This document shows positions 39,929 through 43,478 of a stretch of 64,000 nucleotides of DNA, piece after piece. The notes beneath the pieces were generated by a model. It worked only from the letters and a program-made list of their open reading frames with translations. It was not told where the DNA came from and did not search any database. Source of the stretch: Acidobacteriota bacterium (GTDB lineage: Bacteria > Acidobacteriota > JAAYUB01); the NCBI GenBank assembly GCA_012517875.1, contig JAAYUB010000017.1, forward strand, positions 1-64,000. Reading direction: 5' to 3'. The number at the start of each line of letters is the position of its first letter. Positions within the stretch are counted from its first letter, which is position 1. A program made the translations under genes and the position numbers.

Positions 39929-41368
39929 TTACTCCAACTTCCCGGATGGTCGACGCGTTCGGGGTGGCCCGACCCGCATCCGCAATCCTTGCAACGGCCG
40001 CCCGATCATGTCATCAGGGACCGGCAGGCGGGAGTAATCCAGCACCGTCGGGGTGATGGCGTAGATGCTGGCGTCGCCGGTTTATCCGCCCGCCGGCCGT
40101 CGGGGATCGTGATAGACATAAATTCCGAACCGGTCATGGTTGGCGTCGTCAGGGCCGGCGTCGTTCTCGAAAATGTGCACATTGCCGCCCCCAACCACAC
40201 CCGCGGACCGCTACAATAGGTTGCCGAAATAAACAATCAGATCCGGCGGAATATTCCGGCACTCTCGATCGATGAGCTCAGGGCGGTAAACGACCGTACC
40301 GATGGGGTGACCCTGTTCATCACCGATCGCCTCGATCTCGGCCTGAACGCGATCGCGAAATGCGGGGAATTCCGCCTGAGGAATCACCCCTTGCGGTTCC
40401 CGGCCTTGCACATTGATAAACACACGCGCGTAGTATCCGCCCTCGCCCCAAACGCGCGTCCGGGACCAGTCCACCATGTTCATTTTAAGAGAAATCGGTG
40501 TGGCAGGCGGTTCTTTGAGCACCAGATAGCCTTGGCGACACAGCCATTCATTAATGCAAACGCCGCCCTGCATCCCCCGGGGCGCCATGGTCACTGACCA
40601 CCAAAACGGCGGTCTCGGGGCCGGCCAAATCCAGAACTTCACCGATCCGCTCGTCGAGCCAGCGGTAGTAGTCGCGCAGCGTGTTCCGGAAGTGGTTGCC
40701 CGGCTCATACAGTCGGTGGGTTGGGTCGCAGTAGCGCCAGAAGCCGTGGTGGATCCGGTCCGGTCCCATCTCGACGAACATGAAGAAGTCCCACTCCCGG
40801 TGGGTCAGCCAATGGCGGACCACCTGGATGCCTCGCCGGCTCATGGTATAAATTTGTTCCAACAACCTGGCCTTTTCGTCGGTCCTGAAATCGCTCACGT
40901 CGATGATGTAATCCCCGTCGGCCAAGGCGTCCAATTCGGCGGCTATTTCCGGGGGATAAGTGTAAGGAACGGATTTGTCAGGCGTCAAAAAGCAGCCGTC
41001 CATGATTCCGTTGAGCGGCTTGGGGGGTATGTCTGAGGGACATTTAAAATGATGCAGCGCTTGCGAAGGCGGCTGAGCACGTTCCAGAGCGTTGGCTCCC
41101 TGACTGTTGAGGCGTTGGCGAAAAACAGGTCATCATACCCGTGCGTGCTGCGGTTACGAAATCCGTAGCATCCCAACTGGCCGGGATCCTTGCCGGTCAC
41201 CAAGGCGGTCCATGCGGGCACAGTGATCGGAGGAGTGGTGCTTTCCAGGTGCCCGTACCGGCCGCGCCGGGCCAGGGCGTCAAGCCGGGGCATCTCTGAC
41301 GCAAACTCACCGAAAACCAGCCGGGGTGTGGCGCAGTCCAGCCCGATGATGATCGGTTTAGGACCCAT
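39929..41368 (-). pseudogene. Broken alkaline-phosphatase-fold type I phosphodiesterase
   Basis: Remnant of a protein of about 480 residues of the type I phosphodiesterase/nucleotide pyrophosphatase family, starting [19 protein letters not shown] with the metal-site threonine region PPITVPAWTALVTGKDP. At about 41023 one C seems lost from a C run and the frame moves to the one encoding DGCFLTPDKSV. At about 40580 one C seems gained between SDHGA and GMQGGVCINEWL. Then TAG at 40213-40211 replaces an expected Trp in GNLL(W)RSAG, and TAA at 40084-40082 follows HDPRRPAGG, before IYAITPTVLDYSRLPVPDDMIGRPL and a final TAA at 39931-39929. Similar genes accompany sat and cysC in some sulfur-metabolising bacteria. 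Confidence 0.85.
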
Positions 41369-42522
41369 TGACGCGCCCCCGCGTGTGTTCGATGAGAATG
41401 GCAGCGACTTCCGGGCGACTCAACTCGGACGGCGGATATTCGCCCCTGGCCAGCAATTCCCGCAGCCGGGTGCCGCTGAGTGCCAGATGGTGCTCGGAGT
41501 CGTGGGGGCTTGTCTTGGCTGAAGCCATCTGCTGGCAGGCGCGACAGAAGAACGTGTTGTCAAAGAACATCGGCTGGATGCCGATTTCCTCCGGCTCGAA
41601 TTCCCGGAAGATCAGATGAGCATCGAACGGCCCGTAGAAGCTGCCCACCCCAGCGTGATCGCGTCCCACGATGAGGTGCGTGCAGTCGTAGTTCTTGCGG
41701 ACCAGGGCGTGAAAGACCGCTTCGCGCGGTCCGGCGTAGCGCATCGCCGCAGGGAACACCGAAATCACCGTCCGGGTTTTCGGGAAGTAGTTCTGAAGCA
41801 GTGCGTCGTAGCAACGCATGCGGACGTCCGCCGGGATGTCGTCCGCTTTGGTCTCGCCGACGAGCGGATGAACGAGCAGACCATCGACCGATTCCAGGGC
41901 ACACTTCAAGATGTATTCGTGCGCCCGATGGATCGGATTGCGTGTCTGGAAAGCCACCACCGTATGCCAGCCGCGCTATTTGAACAGGAGCCGCGTCTCC
42001 CGGGGGTCCAGCAGGAAGTTGGCGAACGGGCTGTTCGGTGGGCGCTGCAGCAGGATGATTGGCCCGCCGAGACAGTAGTTTCCGGTCCCCTTCAGATACT
42101 GCATCCCCGGCTGGCGTTCGTCGGTGGTCAGCAGCACCTTCTCGGCTTCCGCCTCCTTGTCCACCGGGTACAACTCCCGTAAATGCAGCACGCCGAGCAG
42201 GGCGCCCGCTGCAGAGTGCAGCGCCACATCCGAGTCCTCAGCCAGTCGATCCGCCTCTGCCCCCGCCACGGCCAAGGTGACGGGTAACGTCCAAGGCAAC
42301 CCATTCGCCAAGCGCTTCAGATCCAGCACCGACAGATAGTCGTCCCGACCCATGAAACCATCCAGCGGGGACATCGCCCCGTGGCCGCATCAGCAAGTCG
42401 AATTGCTCCCGCGGGTTCAATGTGATCGATGGCATGTCGGGCACCGCCTGCATCAGCGACTCCTGCTCCTTGTCTTCGGCAATCCGGTTGACCAGCAGAC
42501 CACCACGCGGCAGAATCGACAA
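41358..42522 (-). pseudogene. sat: Broken sulfate adenylyltransferase (ATP sulfurylase)
   Basis: Remnant of an enzyme that makes APS from sulfate and ATP, expected length about 390 residues. The N-terminal part starts at TTG 42522 (LPRGGLLVNRI to LNPREQFDLLM); near 42374-42395 the frame shifts (net change fits loss of one base in each of two GC runs) and continues MSPLDGFMGRDDYLS. TAG at 41978-41976 interrupts LLFK(stop)RGWHTVVAF. After it lies the intact catalytic core with [21 protein letters not shown] and [11 protein letters not shown]. Its 3' end overlaps the hydrolase start by 11 bases. Sequencing error and true decay both remain possible. Confidence 0.88.
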
Positions 42523-42626
42523 ATTCGATCCTCACCGAAACAGCAGGCTGAAATCGGTCATTCTCTGAAAAGGCTTCCCCAGGCGCAAAATGGATTCTGT
42601 TGCGGGAAGCGGGGGCGTGCGCTCCA

Positions 42627-43478
42627 TCACCGGCCGTGAAGATGCAGGCGTTCCAGGACGCGGCGGACGATCTCATTGGTCCAATCGGGTTCTTCGGCTG
42701 GTTCAGACTTGGGGGCGGGTGTTGCCGCTCCACCGCCCGGAGCAGGGGTCGGTTGCGCCAGCCCGTTCATCAGGCGGTCCAGCCGGAAAGGGTCTTCGGC
42801 GGGCAGCGATTCGCGGACACAGCACTCGGGCACTTCCCCGGTCAACCCGTAACCGGTCCGGATCTGACGGAGCTTGTCCACCTGGTCGCGGCTCAGGACG
42901 TTCACGGCGCCCAGCCCCCTGGCCAGGTAGAGAATATGCGCGAAATGCTCGATGGACTCCATCCGGTAGTACGCTTCGTAGATGCTGCGACCCAGTGTCA
43001 GCGCGCCATGATTCTGGAGCAGAAATGCGTCGTAGCCGCTGAGAAAGGGTCGCAGGGATTCCGGCACCTCCAGCGTGCTGGGCGTGCCGTAGGGCGCCAG
43101 CGGCACCGCTCCCAGGCTCACCACGATTTCGGGCAGCACGCAATGCGACAGCGGCAATCCGGCCACTGCATGCGCCGTGCTGTACGGCGGGTGTGCATGG
43201 AAGACGGCGCGGATCTCCGGGCGCTGGTCGTAGACCAACAGGTGCATCTGGATTTCCGACGAAGGCCGGATGTCGCCTTCCAGGAGGCGACCTTGACGAT
43301 CCACGCGGACAATCATGTCCGGTGTCAGAAATCCCTTGCTCTGCCCGGTGGCGGTGGCCAAAATCTCCGTGTCAGAAATTCTGACGCTGATGTTGCCGTC
43401 GTTGGCGGCCACCCAGCCGCGCAGCCAGCAACGGCGCCCCACCTCGATGATGTCTTTCTTCACATCGTAGATGTTCAT
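42627..43478 (-). CDS. Class II aldolase with C-terminal targeting-peptide-like tail
   Basis: The 283-residue product has a class II aldolase/adducin domain (about residues 5-225) of the fuculose-phosphate aldolase type: NDGNISVRI, VFHAHPPYSTAHAV (zinc histidines), QNHGALTLG. The family is normally about 215 residues. Here a Pro/Ala/Gly-rich linker (about 236-260, PTPAPGGGAATPAPKSEP) is followed by a short amphipathic helix, DWTNEIVRRVLERLHLHGR. That layout is the one of encapsulation peptides that send enzymes into bacterial microcompartments. No shell gene is in the window. It is divergent from the ECF sigma gene and downstream faces the sat remnant. Confidence 0.85.
   Translation of the reverse strand: MNIYDVKKDIIEVGRRCWLRGWVAANDGNISVRISDTEILATATGQSKGFLTPDMIVRVDRQGRLLEGDIRPSSEIQMHLLVYDQRPEIRAVFHAHPPYSTAHAVAGLPLSHCVLPEIVVSLGAVPLAPYGTPSTLEVPESLRPFLSGYDAFLLQNHGALTLGRSIYEAYYRMESIEHFAHILYLARGLGAVNVLSRDQVDKLRQIRTGYGLTGEVPECCVRESLPAEDPFRLDRLMNGLAQPTPAPGGGAATPAPKSEPAEEPDWTNEIVRRVLERLHLHGR

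Follow-up and report, generated by a model that had tools for sequence, protein, structure and literature searches.

A tailed class II aldolase as a probable satellite cargo gene of an acidobacterial metabolosome

The tailed aldolase and its neighbours

The window, the whole 64,000-nucleotide stretch of acidobacterial DNA analysed here, carries a gene for a class II sugar-phosphate aldolase in which the catalytic core is followed by a linker and a terminal helix. The genome of the window is referred to as G000, and genes in sequence stretches were called by conservation between relatives. The features of the locus are:

42627..43478, minus strand: class II (PF00596) sugar-phosphate aldolase with an encapsulation-peptide-like (EP-like) C-terminus, 283 residues, an intact open reading frame with an ATG start
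42825..43478, minus strand: catalytic core, residues 1-218, assigned from invariant residues and Foldseek
42693..42824, minus strand: Pro/Ala/Gly-rich linker, residues 219-262, fast evolving (dN 0.16), with residues 236-260 predicted to be disordered
42630..42692, minus strand: terminal amphipathic helix, residues 263-283, ending DWTNEIVRRVLERLHLHGR, encapsulation-peptide-like, with an AlphaFold helix at 266-282
40019..42540, minus strand: disrupted sat and PF01663 genes

The Pfam Aldolase_II profile (PF00596) matched residues 9-183 at 151.6 bits. Alignments with solved class II aldolases end at about residue 212 and the core at about residue 218, leaving an extension of approximately 65-70 residues, and the original prediction of a class II aldolase extended by about 65 residues into a Pro/Ala/Gly linker and a helix containing EIVRRVLERL (residues 269-278) was therefore confirmed. 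The folds nearest to the core were those of YgbL, DrdA and FucA, with target-normalised TM-scores of 0.89-0.91 in Foldseek. The columns invariant among 19 aligned homologues include N29, S73, E75, H94, H96 and H157, which in alignments to the solved class II aldolases coincide with metal and base positions of FucA. The metal-binding and catalytic roles of these positions in E. coli FucA we take to be established.

In the AlphaFold2 model, based on the alignment of 19 homologues, the core is confident, linker residues 236-260 have a pLDDT below 50 and are predicted to be disordered, and the C-terminal helix (266-282) has a pLDDT of about 70-86. I270, V271, V274, L275 and L278 share one face of this helix. 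The hydrophobic moment of the tail was 0.66, a value equalled in 5.7% of within-tail shuffles (p = 0.057), and 10 of the 19 homologous tails gave a shuffle p below 0.05. The moment of this one tail is therefore only marginally above that of its shuffles. The aldolase has the encapsulation-peptide feature of a flexible linker and a predicted amphipathic helix of 15-20 residues at the terminus, with p = 0.057 for the amphipathicity of this tail alone.

In the comparison with G002, a congener, a dN of 0.006 and a dS of 0.31 place the core under strong purifying selection. The linker gave a dN of 0.16 and a dS of 0.30, and the helix a dN of 0.09 and a dS of 0.14, with no clear excess conservation over 21 codons, a length too short to judge. 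The tail is kept in this congener (94% overall identity), and in G003, from a second genus of the same family, a helix DQLVEQITDRILAKLL is retained behind a linker of another length and sequence. A frame error as the origin of the tail was ruled out by its preservation in the congener and by the linker-plus-helix arrangement in the second genus.

The aldolase is adjoined by sat (ATP sulfurylase), apsK and a PF01663 phosphodiesterase gene. The window's copy of sat is interrupted by an in-frame TAG at about 41976 and a frame break at about 42385, and the PF01663 gene by two frame breaks; apsK and the aldolase, which flank the decayed pair, are intact. The same four-gene order is found with all frames intact in G004 (L064), where the aldolase heads the sat-PF01663-apsK cluster. 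This would suit an enzyme that is cytosolic and tied to the sulfate-activation genes, with a tail that is not an encapsulation peptide but a helix for oligomer packing or for some other partner. However, the aldolase has stayed intact beside the disrupted genes in the window and persists in G002 and G003, where it lies beside a cupin gene and the sat-PF01663-apsK block is absent. It therefore appears to be kept independently of its sulfate-activation neighbours, and we regard a cytosolic role as unlikely (see also below). Sulfate activation was likewise rejected as the main function of the aldolase, since these genes have degenerated in the window and two relatives lack them.

Shell genes in the same genome and in relatives

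No shell gene was found on the window's contig by Pfam profile search, as had been stated for the window itself, and all those of G000 (4.02 Mb, 182 contigs) lie on other contigs. They comprise one BMC-H (C173), one tandem BMC-T (C21) and three BMC-P genes, all above the Pfam cut-offs and together representing all three classes. One BMC-P is on C173 and the other two form a divergent pair (BMC-P2/P3) on C144. In family f1 the main locus consists of BMC-H, BMC-P1, an RnfC-like flavoprotein with FMN-binding, SLBB and 4Fe-4S domains, and BMC-T. This locus is contiguous in G001, G002 and G003 and divided between contig ends in G000, and the BMC-P2/P3 genes are found apart from it throughout the family. 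An aldehyde dehydrogenase (AldDH) is encoded at a satellite locus, C3:3637-5370, and the compartment genes of this lineage are spread over at least four places. Directly after BMC-T of the main locus, a sensor-kinase-like and a NarL-type response-regulator-like gene were seen by eye (L051:8810-12180, L052:12677-16130), and this pair may control the main shell locus.

The best family for the AldDH of G000 was TIGR02518, the acetylating acetaldehyde dehydrogenases, at 605.9 bits, just under the cut-off of 620.1. Its catalytic part is followed in order by a linker, a helix DRDRVRRVVAQVIAEMV, another linker and a short domain that matches no Pfam family. In the AldDH of family f1 (L073:1477-3210, L102:9331-11076) the EP-like helix is similarly in mid-protein, followed by a second linker and then, at the C-terminus, by a short conserved domain (DFVGEQEVLAA...RTRMTPLARDLGE), also without a Pfam match. 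Since both the aldolase and the AldDH carry such helices, two separately sited enzymes of one plausible pathway share docking-type helices. A PduL-type phosphotransacylase (PF06130) was absent from the six genomes searched, G000 included.

Forty related genomes were surveyed, with an aldolase match counted above 150 bits and a shell scored by PF00936. The aldolase was found in 24 of the 40 and PF00936 in 23, with both present in 20 (Fisher odds ratio 21.7, p = 7e-5, relatedness among the 40 genomes not being corrected for). Among the 20 phylum genomes with both, 17 have a shell gene no more than about 5 kb from the aldolase, and the exceptions, with the two on different contigs, are G000, G002 and G003, which belong to the window's own family. 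The usual gene set is the aldolase, BMC-H, BMC-P1, BMC-P2 and BMC-P3, with RnfC and BMC-T in some genomes (L058, L059, L063), and in G026 (L059) a single cluster holds H, P1, AldDH, RnfC, T, P2, P3 and the aldolase. G001 holds shell and AldDH genes, and a protein search of it gave no aldolase match. Since the divergent sigma-factor-like neighbour of the aldolase is missing there too, this absence may be an assembly gap, a deletion being the alternative.

Every BMC-adjacent aldolase examined ends in a linker and helix, so that tailed homologues do occur in BMC loci as the original prediction had anticipated, and this generality is a further argument against a cytosolic role. Ten homologues or paralogues from the phylum that were placed in the tree have no BMC neighbour, and nine of them lack the tail. 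The exception is the complete Acidobacteriota genome G012 (L149, L156:6179-7162), where a class II aldolase ends in an EP-like helix FTPAEIEALVRRVTREVLGEM, with no PF00936 match in the genome and no shell gene in the 20 kb read around it, and this similar tail without PF00936 favours the cytosolic alternative.

In a tree of the aldolases (225 columns, LG+C20), the window's protein sits among the BMC-adjacent aldolases, apart from FucA and DrdA. It groups with those of G002, G003, G004, G005 and a spirochaete metagenome-assembled genome (support 94/82), the members being together in 98% of bootstraps. In every member of this clade (families f1 and f2 and the one spirochaete) the aldolase is away from any shell gene. 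The spirochaete has BMC-H, a PduP-like AldDH and four BMC-P genes in a locus on another contig. The aldolases of G004 and G005 have the tail, these genomes carry solitary BMC-P genes (L097, L098, L100), and the AldDH of G004 has an EP-like helix at its very C-terminus, ending EIDKEKIRSIVKEILEDILKK. No PF00936 match was found in either genome, which would fit either pentamers without hexamers or a shell locus missing from the assemblies.

Probable role and candidate substrates

Since the content of the genome, the linkage seen in other genomes and the anatomy of the tail all support it, we propose with a probability of roughly 0.8 that the aldolase gene is a detached, or satellite, gene for cargo of an acidobacterial metabolosome, with the shell encoded in other parts of the genome. 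The suggestion of a satellite cargo gene has therefore stood, shell genes being present in the genome and similar tails being found on BMC-associated aldolases. Several observations count against it, namely the weak shuffle significance for this one tail, the helix with no clear excess conservation, the tails of G012, G004 and G005 in genomes with no PF00936 match, the shell of G001 with no aldolase match, and the absence of PduL. Judging from its sequence, the tail probably docks the aldolase inside the protein-shelled compartment. The amphipathic helix on its flexible linker would bind a shell or core protein and so draw the enzyme into a compartment built of BMC-H, BMC-P1 and BMC-T from the main locus, with its RnfC/PduS-like flavoprotein, and of BMC-P2/P3 from the second locus. 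There the aldolase would cleave a ketose-1-phosphate to DHAP and a short aldehyde, and we infer that the aldehyde would pass to the CoA-acylating AldDH, encoded at a further locus and drawn in by its own similar helix, to be oxidised to an acyl-CoA.

With regard to the ketose-1-phosphate, the tails of planctomycete-type compartments that degrade fucose and rhamnose had been cited as the precedent. The aldolase has the FucA fold and catalytic residues, and L-fuculose-1-phosphate or L-rhamnulose-1-phosphate as the substrate, with lactaldehyde as the encapsulated aldehyde, would resemble the PVM and GRM5 compartments. Fuculose and rhamnulose kinases are FGGY proteins. FGGY_C (PF02782) had no match in G000, G001, G002 and G004 and one in G003, these being the five genomes of the order searched, and the search was positive in 14 of 14 control genomes. 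The PVM and GRM5 compartments contain an aldolase of the same Pfam family (PMC8217296, PMC3557285), and the GRM5 compartment of C. phytofermentans for fucose and rhamnose relies on fuculose and rhamnulose kinases earlier in the pathway (PMC3557285). In contrast, G000 has neither an FGGY kinase nor PduL, and its aldolase is not in the shell locus. Furthermore, the AldDH is nearest to an acetaldehyde-type model and the aldolase falls outside the FucA group in the tree, and we consider these two substrates very improbable. Since no FGGY kinase was found in four of the five order genomes, the fucose/rhamnose chemistry attributed by analogy is not supported for G000, and such catabolism was set aside as the function of the aldolase.

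The DHAP shunt, in the form that uses a phosphorylase, employs MTAP and MtnA together with a class II aldolase (PMC10986504), and it converts 5'-deoxyadenosine to DHAP and acetaldehyde (PMC6079011). All three are present in G000, with MTAP at 320 bits (TIGR01694) and MtnA at 388 bits (TIGR00512), both over the curated cut-offs. The aldolase was the only PF00596-like protein found in G000 by protein search, and hence no separate MtnB was seen. The presence of MTAP and MtnA makes a sugar resembling 5-deoxyribulose-1-phosphate a possible substrate. As a tentative refinement of the satellite-cargo explanation, drawn from gene content, 5-deoxyribulose-1-phosphate or 5-methylthioribulose-1-phosphate could be supplied via MTAP and MtnA from 5'-deoxyadenosine or methylthioadenosine, in which case a DHAP shunt would run with its aldehyde step inside the compartment. 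The phosphorylase variant needs no kinase (PMC10986504), its products DHAP and acetaldehyde (PMC6079011) would suit an acetylating AldDH, and the aldolase shares its fold and catalytic residues with DrdA/Ald2 (PMC6079011, PMC10986504). On the other hand, MTAP and MtnA are widespread among bacteria, the MtnA gene of G000 is surrounded by housekeeping genes and no microcompartment gene, and in structure the aldolase matches DrdA and FucA equally well. The window's aldolase also lies outside the DrdA group on another branch of the tree, and DrdA (PDB 6btd chain, 222 residues) has no comparable tail. A link between MtnA and shell genes was sought and none was found, and a literature search for microcompartments linked to the DHAP shunt, methylthioadenosine or 5'-deoxyadenosine found none of relevance. 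We would rate slightly lower still the further proposal that the compartment houses the aldehyde step of the shunt. Cytosolic MTAP and MtnA would then make 5-deoxyribulose-1-phosphate or the methylthio analogue, from which the encapsulated aldolase and acetylating dehydrogenase would yield DHAP and acyl-CoA with the aldehyde not released.

The spirochaete aldolase is directly followed by a pyrimidine-nucleoside phosphorylase-like gene (L050:8404-10521; seen by eye), a neighbour that hints at nucleoside-derived pentose-1-phosphates.

Relation to known microcompartment types and implications

The ACI type of microcompartment, from Acidobacteria, combines a class II aldolase bearing an EP at its C-terminus with an AldDH encoded at a satellite locus (Sutter et al. 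2021, PMC8217296). A hydroxyacid dehydrogenase in the locus is a further ACI feature. The FRAG types have scattered shell genes, three BMC-P and no obvious signature enzyme, and for neither ACI nor FRAG does the 2021 catalogue give an aldehyde-generating signature enzyme or a confirmed substrate (PMC8217296). Like ACI, the system of the window belongs to the Acidobacteriota, has a PF00596 aldolase with a C-terminal EP-like helix and an AldDH on a satellite locus, and has at least one BMC-H and three BMC-P in G000, here not contiguous. Unlike ACI, the aldolase is outside the main shell locus in G000, G002 and G003, on a different contig in each, the BMC-P2/P3 pair is also detached, and the main locus has an RnfC-like protein and BMC-T that are unlisted in the published text summary (PMC8217296). 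The resemblance to FRAG lies in the three BMC-P and in shell genes at several genomic places, whereas here two enzymes bearing EP-like helices, the aldolase and the AldDH, are assignable. By its gene features, the window's system therefore resembles both, working like ACI and scattered like FRAG. Since the aldolase is outside the main locus and the types are defined by shell protein phylogeny, we describe it as a variant and not as a member of ACI. The analogy to planctomycete-type compartments holds in that tailed aldolases are encoded in BMC loci, but the best-matching type is the acidobacterial ACI/FRAG rather than PVM.

A lineage with its compartment in several loci shows which genes travel together as functional partners, and it cautions that cargo genes can sit far from shell genes, thereby escaping neighbourhood searches. 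With FGGY kinases missing and MTAP and MtnA encoded, fewer substrates remain as candidates, and these are open to enzyme assay. If the DHAP shunt does have its aldehyde step in the compartment, the uncharacterised ACI-like and FRAG-like compartments would gain a substrate, in the salvage of S-adenosylmethionine by-products.
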